Assembly (NCBI GenBank): GCA_900473185.1
Contig: UCKU01000017.1
Location: forward strand, 95,245-159,244
Direction of reading: 5' to 3'
Length of the DNA stretch: 64,000 nucleotides
Source: Hyphomicrobiales bacterium
Lineage (GTDB): Bacteria > Pseudomonadota > Alphaproteobacteria > Rhizobiales > Rhizobiaceae
The notes below the pieces were generated by a model. The model was not told the DNA's origin and did not search any database. It saw nothing but the letters and a program-made list of their open reading frames with translations. Position numbers and translations under genes: made by a program. Of the stretch, positions 60,582 through 64,000 are shown piece by piece. Each line of letters begins with the position of its first letter. The stretch's first letter is position 1.

Positions 60582-61349
60582 TCAGGCTTCGGTCGCCTCA
60601 TCGAGCGCCGGCTCGAACGGAGCTTCCGCAGAAGCGCCGAGGTCGCGGCCCGATCCGCTCTGCTGACGGGCAATACCGTCAATGGCAGCGCGGGCGATCA
60701 GGTCGCAGTAGAGAGCGATGGCGCGCGAAGCGTCGTCGTTGCCCGGGATCGGATAGTCGATCAGGTCCGGATCGCAGTTCGAGTCGATGATGGCGACGAC
60801 CGGAATGCCGAGGCGCTTGGCTTCGTCGATCGCGATCTTTTCCTTGTTGGTGTCGATGATGAACATCAGGTCCGGCGTGCCGCCCATGTCCTTGATACCA
60901 CCGAGGGCCTTGTCGAGCTTTTCGCGCTCGCGCTCGAGGTTCAGGCGTTCCTTCTTGGAGTAGCCGGACTGCTCAGAAGACAGAATTTCGTCGAGCTTGC
61001 GCAGGCGCTGGATCGAGTTGGAGATCGTCTTCCAGTTCGTCATCATGCCGCCGAGCCAACGCGAGTTGACGTAGTACTGCGCAGAACGCTTGGCCGAGTC
61101 AGCGATCAGCTCGGAAGCCTGACGCTTGGTGCCAACGAAGAGAACGCGGCCGCCACGAGCAACGGTGTCGGACACGACCTGCAGGGCGCGCGACAGCATC
61201 GGAACGGTCTGAGCCAGGTCGATGATGTGGATGTTGTTACGATCGCCGAAAATGTACGGCTTCATCTTCGGGTTCCAGCGGTGAGTCTGGTGACCGAAGT
61301 GGACGCCGGCTTCCAGAAGCTGGCGCATAGAAAAATCAGGCAATGCCAT
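60582..61349 (-). CDS. rpsB: 30S ribosomal protein S2
   Basis: The 255-residue small-subunit protein carries '[20 protein letters not shown]' at the N-terminus and the central '[16 protein letters not shown]' and '[20 protein letters not shown]' motifs. A short acidic C-terminal tail (Ala/Glu-rich) follows, common in alphaproteobacteria. It heads the translation and lipid cluster running leftwards to lpxB. Confidence 0.98.
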
Positions 61350-61572: not shown

Positions 61573-62676
61573 TCAGCTTGCCAGCATGTTCAGCAGCGAG
61601 AGCATGACGCCAGCATCCGGGATCGGCAACACGGCATCGATCTCGGCCGACAGCAGACCGGCGATGGGGCCTTTGGTATCGCCGGTCACGGTGCCGAGCG
61701 GCCCGCGAAAACCGTGTTTGGCCCAGGCAAGCTCCTGCAGCTTTGCGCTCGTCAGCGCTTCGATCAGACGTTCGACCGTTTCATCCACTACGATCAGCGG
61801 ATGGGCCGAATAGACGGTCGGGCGCGGGTAGAGGACAACGGGCTTGGCGCCCTGCCCCGACTGGATGCGGTTCCATCGGTTGGCATCGGCAAGCGCCCAT
61901 TCGACGAGTTGATTCTCGTAACCGACAATCATCGGTTCGCCGCCGAGGCCGCCTGCCAGATACTGGTCGAACAGCTTGCCTGACGATGGCGACTTGAAAC
62001 CCATATTACGGAAGATCGACTGCACCTTGCCGCCATATTGGGCGAGATCATCCGATGTCGCGACATTGCCGCTGAAGAGGCTGAGTGCCAGACCCGAGAA
62101 CATGAAGCCCGAATTCGACCGGTTCGGATCGGTGGAGACGATGCGCGCCCGGCCGTAGAGCGCATTGACGCCAAGTTTCGACCAATCCGTCCCGGCAAGG
62201 ATGGCATCAAGCAGCGCCTTCAGGTCGAGCTGGTGATGGCCGTTGATTACCGTCACGAGGCCCGATTTGATCAGCCCGTCCACGACCGGCTGCCACGTAT
62301 AGACAACGACAGGCGTGTTCAGCATGACCCTGTCATCGCGGATCTTCACACCGTTCTGACGGGCGATATCCACCATGATGGAGGAGGACGGCCAAAGAAA
62401 TTGCGGGTTCTGCGAAAGCAAGGCCTGCTCGCGAACCATTTCGACCGAGCCGGCGACGCGACTGTCGATCGAGAGGCCGTAGCCCTTGATAGCGTCGACG
62501 ACGTCGGGGTCGGCAAGGAAAGCCTCCTTCTCGCCGCCAATGAAGCCAAACAGCTTTGTGCGCGTACCCAGCAGACCCTGCAGTTCCGGCCTGTCGCGGA
62601 CGGCGAAATAGCCGCCCGTGCCGGCAATACCGGTGGCGAGCAGTCCAACTCCAAAGGCGCGGCGGGAAAGGGCCAT
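61573..62676 (-). CDS. Tat-signal solute-binding-like protein in a vWA/XpaC cluster
   Basis: The 367-residue protein begins with a twin-arginine-like signal or anchor (MALSRRAFGVGLLATGIAGT) and then a type II periplasmic-binding-like fold: 'RVAGSVEMVREQALLSQNP', 'VVYTWQPVVDGLIKSGLVTV', a region with 'NRSNSGFMFSGLALSLFSGN', and 'GEPMIVGYENQLVEWALAD'. It probably binds an oxyanion or other ligand outside the cytoplasmic membrane. It shares one base with the XpaC-like gene upstream (TGATG). I do not recognise a specific named family, and its role in the cluster is inference. Confidence 0.7.
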   Translation of the reverse strand: MALSRRAFGVGLLATGIAGTGGYFAVRDRPELQGLLGTRTKLFGFIGGEKEAFLADPDVVDAIKGYGLSIDSRVAGSVEMVREQALLSQNPQFLWPSSSIMVDIARQNGVKIRDDRVMLNTPVVVYTWQPVVDGLIKSGLVTVINGHHQLDLKALLDAILAGTDWSKLGVNALYGRARIVSTDPNRSNSGFMFSGLALSLFSGNVATSDDLAQYGGKVQSIFRNMGFKSPSSGKLFDQYLAGGLGGEPMIVGYENQLVEWALADANRWNRIQSGQGAKPVVLYPRPTVYSAHPLIVVDETVERLIEALTSAKLQELAWAKHGFRGPLGTVTGDTKGPIAGLLSAEIDAVLPIPDAGVMLSLLNMLAS

Positions 62677-63293
62677 CAGCGTCCGAGATCCTCTTTGAGC
62701 GATGCCTGGATGAGGCGCAGGTCGGTATCGAGCGTGCCGAGCTCAGCATCAACAAGGCTGTCGGCATAATGAACGAAGGCATCCTCGAGCTTCACCAGCA
62801 CGGCGCGTACGTCCTCCAACTGCTTGACGTCAGGCGCGCGTTTCGCCTCGATCACCGCAAATCCCTCGGCGACTTCGGCAGCACGCGGCAGATAGTAGCT
62901 GAGGAAGCGGCGTACGGAATTGGCACTTTCCGGCCTCGCCTCCACCTTGCGGAAGACATCGGCGGCGATTTCCGCCAGGTGGCGTACGCGCGCTGCCGTC
63001 TGCTTGTCGGCGATATCGTCCGCGGCCGTCCCCAGCCTTTGTGCGGCGGGCACAGCCCCTTCCAGCAACTCTCTCGCGAAGGCAACGCGACCGCGGCCGA
63101 TCACCTTGATATCGAGACCTTCGAAAAGCCTGCGCGGCGCCAGAAGGAAAACGAGGCCGGCAAAAACCAGAAGGCCGACGACGGCGGCAATCCAGAACGG
63201 CATGCCGGCGGCAAACGTCAGGACGGGGACGAGAATGGCCGTGACCACTCCCGCCACGATCCAGTTGCCGTCATTGCCGAGCCAGTTGCGCAT
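62676..63293 (-). CDS. XpaC-like membrane protein
   Basis: The 205-residue protein has two hydrophobic segments near the N-terminus (about 11-28 and 32-50). It continues with a cytoplasmic helical domain containing 'AVPAAQRLGTAADDIADKQT' and 'SVRRFLSYYLPRAAEVAEGF', the pattern of the XpaC (5-bromo-4-chloroindolyl phosphate hydrolysis) family. XpaC genes usually accompany telA-type toxic-anion-resistance genes. The start MRNWLG was chosen since upstream in-frame residues look like antisense of the vWA gene. It overlaps the solute-binding-like gene by one base. Confidence 0.8.
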   Translation of the reverse strand: MRNWLGNDGNWIVAGVVTAILVPVLTFAAGMPFWIAAVVGLLVFAGLVFLLAPRRLFEGLDIKVIGRGRVAFARELLEGAVPAAQRLGTAADDIADKQTAARVRHLAEIAADVFRKVEARPESANSVRRFLSYYLPRAAEVAEGFAVIEAKRAPDVKQLEDVRAVLVKLEDAFVHYADSLVDAELGTLDTDLRLIQASLKEDLGR

Positions 63294-63300
63294 GCCGGTC

Positions 63301-64000
63301 CTAGTTGTAGCCGCGGGCGGTACGGAATGCCGCCGCAAGGTCCGACCGGCCATCGAAGACACGTGCCGCGGTCGCTGCCGCCAGACTGTCGAGCTGGGTC
63401 TTGTCCGCATCACCGAAGGTAATGCCGAAGATCGGCACGCGTGGTTCCATCGCGTTCCAATCGCTCATGAAAGCCGCACTCTGGTCATCGGATCTGCCGT
63501 CGGTCATGATGATGATCGCCGGCAGATAATTGGACAGGTCTGCGGTTTTCGCCATCTGCTGGAGCGCACTTTCGGCGCAGGCATACATATTGGTGCCGCC
63601 GCCGGCATGCTGACCGGAAACTGCGTTGAGAAGCCCCTGCTGCTCCATCGTGTCACCCGAAGCCGAAAAGATATCGCGGACATTGGCATCGAAGGGAATG
63701 ACGAAGATGCGGTCGGCCGGCGACCACTGCACCAGCACCTTGCTGGCCTCCTCGGGCGTGAAGAGGAAGCGCATCGCCTGCTGCAGACTGTTCTCGCCGT
63801 CCCCCTGCATCGAGCCGGAGAAATCGAGGCAGAGCGCCGTCAGTGACGGTTTGCGCAGTGCAGCCTGATAGAGCGTGAGCGCCTGGCGGATCACTGTCGG
63901 TTCCGGCATACGGATCGCGGTCACCAGTTTGGCCGGATCGAAATTCCAGCTCGGCTCCGGCTCAGCGGTGACGCTGCCAAGCGGCAGGCGGCGACCGGTT
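63301..64000 (-). CDS. von Willebrand factor A domain protein (partial, runs off the window)
   Basis: The visible 3' part covers a vWA domain with a complete MIDAS: 'CLDFSGSMQG' (DxSxS), 'GGGTNMYA' (Thr) and 'IIMTDGRSDD' (Asp). The frame is still open at position 64000 with residues ending ...NFDPAKLVTAIRMPEPTV, so the gene starts beyond the right edge. Similar alphaproteobacterial proteins carry an N-terminal solute-binding-like or TM part. It is followed 7 bases later by the XpaC-like gene. It probably binds a metal and scaffolds a membrane complex. The exact partner is unknown. Confidence 0.82.
   Translation of the reverse strand, partial: TGRRLPLGSVTAEPEPSWNFDPAKLVTAIRMPEPTVIRQALTLYQAALRKPSLTALCLDFSGSMQGDGENSLQQAMRFLFTPEEASKVLVQWSPADRIFVIPFDANVRDIFSASGDTMEQQGLLNAVSGQHAGGGTNMYACAESALQQMAKTADLSNYLPAIIIMTDGRSDDQSAAFMSDWNAMEPRVPIFGITFGDADKTQLDSLAAATAARVFDGRSDLAAAFRTARGYN

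Follow-up and report, generated by a model that had tools for sequence, protein, structure and literature searches.

Gene content and order of the locus

Three minus-strand genes occupy positions 61573-64000 of the DNA stretch analysed here, 64,000 nucleotides of a Hyphomicrobiales bacterium assembly that form the window of this study (G000:C48:95245-159244). A preliminary description of this stretch had placed a vWA protein with a metal ion-dependent adhesion site (MIDAS), an XpaC-like membrane protein and an exported binding protein there, spaced 7 and -1 bases apart; the three genes were confirmed and this spacing proved exact. The window edge truncates the first of the three open reading frames (ORFs), and extension of the locus into the adjoining assembly stretch (L002) gives the full order of these minus-strand genes: eipB, telA, SBP-vWA, xpaC, SBP-like, rpsB, where SBP stands for substrate-binding protein. 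Only four genes lie between eipB and rpsB, in a layout shared with 10 other genomes. The expectation that XpaC travels with TelA is borne out, telA rather than an unrelated gene standing directly upstream of SBP-vWA, beyond position 64000. Judged from presence and absence across genomes, the four genes behave as an evolutionary unit that is gained and lost together in Rhizobium. The features within the window are as follows.

61573..62676, minus strand: gene for a predicted SBP-like exported protein, 367 residues, with an S-R-R signal-like N-terminus
62676..63293, minus strand: xpaC (PF10112), 205 residues, with a hydrophobic N-terminal region and a soluble part
63301..64000, minus strand: C-terminal part of the SBP-vWA gene (predicted lipoprotein), which runs on to window-equivalent position 64887 (L002:8545-10131)
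63811..63825, minus strand: MIDAS motif 1, D-F-S-G-S, residues 355-359 of SBP-vWA; DxSxS in 17 of 17 loci checked
63592..63594, minus strand: MIDAS threonine, residue 432 of SBP-vWA (GGT); invariant in 11 of 11 aligned sequences
63499..63501, minus strand: MIDAS aspartate, residue 463 of SBP-vWA (TDG); invariant in 11 of 11 aligned sequences
60582..61349, minus strand: rpsB, a flanking gene outside the unit (Ribosomal_S2, E 2.5e-99)

The end of telA overlaps the GTG start of SBP-vWA by 4 bases, and candidate starts of telA itself are a TTG or an ATG ten codons further on. For xpaC the longest ORF is longer than the gene listed; the ATG at 63293, which yields the 7-base gap to SBP-vWA, was taken as the start because this gap recurs in 34 of 48 related loci. 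The gap of -1 between xpaC and the SBP gene is found in all 48. Related named genomes belong to Rhizobium and Neorhizobium species, which makes a Rhizobium the most probable host. Promoter and terminator scans gave matches no more numerous than in shuffled sequences. Upstream of telA, eipB is recognised by its PF08904 match (E 6.4e-87), and a passage of a review assigns it to a conserved envelope gene cluster (PMC10787603).

The two binding proteins

The vWA ORF seen in the window covers no more than the C-terminal portion of a protein of 528 residues in which an SBP_bac_11 domain is fused to a VWA domain, with a lipobox that marks it as a predicted lipoprotein. Both domains lie above the Pfam cut-offs, SBP_bac_11 at E 7.2e-10 (39.5 bits, cut-off 25) and VWA at E 9.9e-11 (1.7e-11 in the scan of the window ORF), and SBP_bac_11 is matched at E<=0.001 in 9 of 11 SBP-vWA homologues. 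The MIDAS claimed in the preliminary description is fully present, D355-x-S-x-S, T432 and D463 all being invariant in an 11-sequence alignment (A3, own sequence included). The vWA domain model is confident and aligns to vWA domains of known structure (9c4f_I: Z 21.4, root-mean-square deviation 2.3, 172 residues), and the metal-site residues together with the modelled vWA fold indicate a complete MIDAS vWA domain. The structure model of the whole protein has a mean predicted local distance difference test (pLDDT) score of 57.7 and is good over the vWA part alone.

The SBP half retains G39-S-E, D83, S156-N-x-G, G203-S-S-G, N227-Y-E, G255 and A259-D-x-P in 17 sequences from Rhizobium to Nonomuraea, with the motifs GSE, SN(S/T)G, GSSG and NYE conserved across these diverse SBP halves. 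The conserved clusters would sit at the binding cleft, a position argued from sequence alone because the SBP structure models are poor. The solved sequences nearest to the SBP half are mostly iron- and molybdate-binding SBPs, with matches over part of the domain (best E 1.6e-4). A simple pattern finds the lipobox in 15 of 17 SBP-vWA proteins, and the residue following its cysteine is D or N in the Rhizobium sequences that reach the lipobox. In E. coli, D after the lipobox cysteine favours retention in the inner membrane. The predicted location of the vWA domain, which is fused to the SBP domain, is the periplasmic side of the inner membrane.

The 367-residue SBP-like protein has no Pfam match of its own, and SBP_bac_11 is reached at E<=0.1 by 2 of its 11 homologues (best 4e-5). 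BLASTP aligns it to SBP-vWA with 24% identity over 287 residues (E 0.002), and profile-profile comparison with the SBP half gives a probability of 96.7 (E 3.7e-10) with 11 + 11 sequences and of 99.5 (E 4.4e-22) with 17 + 17. These profiles identify it as a distant homologue of the binding domain within SBP-vWA, and the products of the unit therefore include two SBPs of common descent, one of which also carries a vWA domain. Its model is poor (mean pLDDT 42.9), and a fold in common with the SBP half may be expected from homology. Export by the Tat route, as earlier proposed, would rest on the SRR signal-like start of this protein; an (S/T)RR N-terminus occurs in 8 of 17 homologues, and most others tested have a hydrophobic start. 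The protein would be anchored N-terminally and face the periplasm.

XpaC and TelA

The PF05816 and PF10112 genes lie in one gene run with SBP-vWA alone between them. XpaC matches PF10112 at E 1.6e-26 (2.9e-26 in the window-ORF scan), the only such match at E<=0.001 in its own genome, and 9 of 10 XpaC homologues reach the family at E<=0.01; with its hydrophobic N-terminal region, it is the XpaC-like membrane protein that the preliminary description named. Across 12 XpaC and XpaC-like proteins tested, the first 65 residues contain 1-3 strongly hydrophobic windows, and the N-terminal region is probably a two-helix membrane hairpin. TelA matches PF05816 at E 6.7e-91 and was taken as cytosolic because it has no hydrophobic stretch, no window rising above 0.91. 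XpaC usually accompanies TelA: outside the unit, an XpaC profile match lies within 1.5 kb of telA in 25 of 29 TelA loci, a count taken from 30 loci at the top of the TelA list, which is a biased sample, with module locus L229 excluded. In one R. phaseoli genome (G012; L016/L102), telA is split into two frames by a frameshift, while matches to the other three genes are unbroken.

XpaC falls into two families that are weakly linked (hhalign probability 82, E 1e-5), and a clear match to both profiles, which bridges the families, is seen for L134 and L111 alone. The second-family profile was built from L115-L118, which match it by construction, L132 and L133 being independent of it; the first profile contained L111 and L112, and matching was redone without both.

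In Listeria, extracts of one paper describe the XpaC-TelA operon lmo1966-lmo1967 as induced by bacteriocin, cite an lmo1967 mutant as more sensitive to nisin and tellurite, and state that the mechanism behind TelA/XpaC tolerance is not known (PMC12791056). Passages of further papers report a rise of telA1 and an XpaC-like gene in a Lactococcus CesSR envelope-stress experiment (PMC3139573) and of xpaC in a liaR mutant (PMC10269926), and lend support to a response of the pair to envelope-active peptides (PMC7864038). TelA is listed among components of sub-membrane structures in part of another text (PMC7824862), and R. sphaeroides telA as a tellurite-resistance gene in a section of a further one (PMC6955997).

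Co-inheritance within the genus

The whole set is present in 11 of 25 same-genus genomes (own genome and 10 others), always between eipB and rpsB, and rpsB follows the unit at all 11 loci. TelA lies at the locus in these same 11 genomes, divided between two frames in one case. Among the 14 genomes without the unit, a spacer of 204-1062 bases separates eipB from the rpsB that follows it in 13, and one is cut by a contig end (L188). For the 13 genomes with an empty site, the site itself was inspected, and two of the four proteins, SBP-vWA and TelA, were sought across the whole genome. Weak partial TelA matches (G003, G005 and G016, with further ones in G000, G007, G011 and G013) were not counted as the TelA of the unit, and a second full-length TelA is present in G007 and G012. 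The spacer of G005 matches G007 on both sides, at 91% over 231 bases up to the telA start and at 95% over 483 bases from inside the SBP gene, and therefore about 4.2 kb bearing the unit was lost in a single deletion.

The ratio of nonsynonymous to synonymous substitution rates (dN/dS) lies at 0.046-0.115 for the four genes, with three sequence pairs compared per gene, and these ratios together with joint presence and absence place the clustering of the genes beyond chance. A genome scan found the four genes in the same order in 48 of 48 named loci, with eipB and rpsB also present in 47; these loci are of Rhizobium type apart from one metagenome-assembled genome labelled Devosia, and several are genomes that also entered the other counts. 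The Devosia-labelled copy (L094) is Rhizobium-like, at 74% identity, with flanks lacking eipB and rpsB, and represents either a transfer or a mislabelled bin. Two loci (L077, L091) hold about 1.6-2.4 kb extra between the SBP gene and rpsB.

Distribution beyond the genus

SBP-vWA was detected in 9 of 398 Pseudomonadota genomes (E<=1e-15; own genome included), and SBP, searched separately (E<=1e-10), was found in the same nine at its own neighbouring coordinates. TelA is more frequent, occurring in 67 of the 398, including all nine with SBP-vWA. A class sample likewise yielded SBP-vWA in 9 of 385 genomes, own genome included. The samples are phylogenetically uneven, the nine SBP-vWA genomes representing six genera. 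TelA is present in 15 of 15 SBP-vWA genomes tested and is unlinked in two (G306, G713). A second, weaker pair of SBP-vWA-like matches was seen in G713 (L135, L136).

The set recurs in other genomes, in keeping with the grouping that the preliminary description proposed. Sixteen loci read outside the genus encode a full-length SBP-vWA. SBP is present at all 16 and telA at 13; the exported binding protein, earlier held not to be a well-described component, is by this conservation a regular member. XpaC is clear at nine of these loci (L105-L111, L134, L137) and an XpaC-like protein of the second family stands at six (L115-L118, L132, L133), while L112 has a candidate by place and size alone, with no Pfam match and a weak profile score (E 0.0037). 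Betaproteobacteria and Actinomycetota have sets of a similar kind, as do Deinococcota, there without telA.

Most Alphaproteobacteria examined have the order telA / SBP-vWA / xpaC / SBP. The order becomes SBP / telA / SBP-vWA / xpaC-like in Variovorax, Sphaerotilus, Nonomuraea, L132 and L133, and SBP-vWA / xpaC / SBP / telA at L111; Deinococcus has SBP / SBP-vWA / xpaC-like and nothing more of the set. The set is kept while gene order changes, which argues for joint function. Of two remote relatives, Thiodictyon has SBP-vWA and an SBP, and Miltoncostaea SBP-vWA alone, with no TelA or XpaC found in either.

Comparison with known systems

The known XpaC-TelA pair (PF10112 and PF05816), of which Cytobacillus provides an example, keeps both families close together, as here, but is without the two SBP proteins and the vWA domain, which in the Rhizobium unit are added and inherited as a block. 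A Ter-type cluster of Caballeronia (TelA-VWA-DUF475-TerD) resembles the unit in having telA beside a vWA gene and a predicted stress role. Its vWA protein fails the SBP-vWA profile (E 0.27), whereas the Rhizobium vWA protein is an SBP-bearing lipoprotein with no TerD nearby. The unit contains no TerD, the search of its own genome placing TerD matches on contig C47 alone and the unit lying on C48. A Ter cluster was rejected for the unit by the TerD criterion only (no TerD on contig C48). The earlier assignment to a Ter-type toxic-anion or chemical-stress module is thereby narrowed: the Ter part lacks support, TerD being on another contig only, and the stress part persists, XpaC-TelA being linked in print to envelope stress. 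At G000:C47:107344-109077 in the same genome, a TerD gene stands beside a divergent TelA-related ORF.

The plasmid kla operon (klaA-klaB(telA)-klaC) likewise holds TelA in a three-gene operon, and a section of one paper counts the RK2 kla (kilA-tellurite resistance) operon among tellurite determinants (PMC6955997). In three plasmid operons of kla layout, the first protein is a TelA relative (TelA match E 4.9e-13 to 1.7e-9; XpaC only 0.014-0.26), and the third, with 3-4 hydrophobic stretches, matches neither the SBP nor the XpaC profile (best E 0.47). Equating KlaC/TelB with SBP and KlaA with XpaC was rejected by profiles, Pfam and hydropathy on these three operons, which have the RK2 layout and are distinct from RK2 itself. 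The R751 stretch examined carries no telA annotation.

An SBP-dependent ATP-binding cassette (ABC) transporter locus was rejected, as no permease or ATPase gene lies between eipB and rpsB, and a known anti-phage system was rejected with 0 PADLOC matches for the four proteins at E<=0.01. Proteins annotated as 'Substrate-binding and VWA domain-containing protein' share the architecture of SBP-vWA, a Variovorax member standing in a similar four-gene set, but the name also covers members without the set (Streptomyces L138). No description of the four-gene set was found in the literature searched; the Anantharaman 2012 Ter paper, outside that literature, may mention it.

Proposed mechanism and rival explanations

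The unit is tentatively read as a four-gene envelope-protection complex, in which a predicted periplasmic SBP/vWA arm feeds the TelA-XpaC pair; the likelihood of this reading falls a little short of evenly balanced. Cytosolic TelA and XpaC, with its membrane hairpin and soluble part, would form an inner, membrane-facing pair, and the SBP-vWA lipoprotein with the N-terminally anchored SBP would make up a periplasmic arm attached to that membrane. A ligand or an envelope-damage product would be bound in the conserved cleft of one or both SBP domains, and the closed SBP would be recognised by the metal-dependent vWA domain (MIDAS) of the lipoprotein. This recognition would cluster XpaC, and hence TelA, under the membrane, and the clustered TelA/XpaC would stabilise the membrane against toxic anions or membrane-active peptides.

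Several observations weigh against this reading. Within the stretches read, telA is absent at 3 of the 16 outside-genus loci (L108, L134, L117), Streptomyces L139 has SBP without SBP-vWA and Streptomyces L138 has SBP-vWA without the rest, and L134 has no detectable GSSG motif or lipobox. The XpaC-like proteins of Nonomuraea, Variovorax, Deinococcus, Sphaerotilus, L132 and L133 fall below the PF10112 threshold, and single sequences of this second family reach the alphaproteobacterial profile only at E 0.018-1.1. The partial matches of the SBP half to solved SBPs (best E 1.6e-4) do not indicate a ligand class. The SBP models are poor (pLDDT 42.9 for SBP, 57.7 for SBP-vWA), and the support, cleft placement included, is sequence-based.

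That the four genes are chance neighbours with no joint function is hardly to be credited: three of 16 loci lack telA and two Streptomyces stretches hold single members, but joint occurrence, loss as a unit and the presence of both SBPs in the same 9 of 398 genomes make it very unlikely. The matching distribution of the two SBPs also suits another explanation, in which the SBP folds are purely structural and SBP and SBP-vWA make a constitutive scaffold by binding to each other or to further envelope proteins, neither a small ligand nor signalling being involved. The four-gene unit contains no permease, ATPase, kinase or DNA-binding gene, as such a scaffold would have it; the most conserved residues (GSE, SNSG, GSSG, NYE), however, resemble cleft loops in their presumed placement rather than a surface patch, and a scaffold is considered unlikely.

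Oxyanion or metal handling, in which the SBPs capture a periplasmic anion and either keep it bound or hand it on to a transporter encoded elsewhere while TelA/XpaC supply resistance, would accommodate the weak SBP-half matches to molybdate- and iron-binding SBPs, the section listing R. sphaeroides telA as a tellurite-resistance gene (PMC6955997) and the remote Thiodictyon relative about 5.5 kb from pst genes. It appears distinctly unlikely for a unit without a transporter gene, and no common neighbour was noticed among the distant loci, most neighbours there not having been family-scanned. Defence or exclusion against phage, plasmids or bacteriocins, as proposed for Ter systems, is quite improbable. 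It would fit the scattered occurrence at a single site (11 of 25 genomes), the Variovorax plasmid unit about 2.4 kb from Wadjet (Jet) genes (L116:12502-17452) and the match of TelA to a phage family named tellurite resistance (PHROG 5890). Defence genes often change rapidly, whereas the four genes show purifying selection; none of their proteins has a PADLOC match at E<=0.01, and the Rhizobium site is a core envelope locus.

The envelope-protection reading admits a bolder and doubtful form, in which the two SBPs, one with a MIDAS vWA domain, would serve as a receptor pair resembling integrins at the outer surface of the inner membrane, their ligand-driven, metal-dependent association being relayed via XpaC to a TelA coat beneath it; this would be a phylum-crossing, previously undescribed trans-envelope device. 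If true, the receptor pair would supply TelA-XpaC with the input side that is still missing. Published work ties TelA and XpaC, both widespread, to tolerance of tellurite and antimicrobial peptides, and the co-inherited, predicted extracytoplasmic binding proteins offer a testable input, as the SBP ligand may reveal the TelA-XpaC trigger. In Rhizobium the unit is naturally present or absent at one constant place in the chromosome, and the empty sites are clean, a situation that lends itself to simple genetic tests.

Other contents of the eipB-rpsB site

The eipB-rpsB slot may hold alternative cargo. Its spacer contains a 185-residue pentapeptide-repeat-like ORF in the unit-less relatives L183 and L184, and an ORF of 224-236 residues with a signal-like start in L185-L187, both named by eye.

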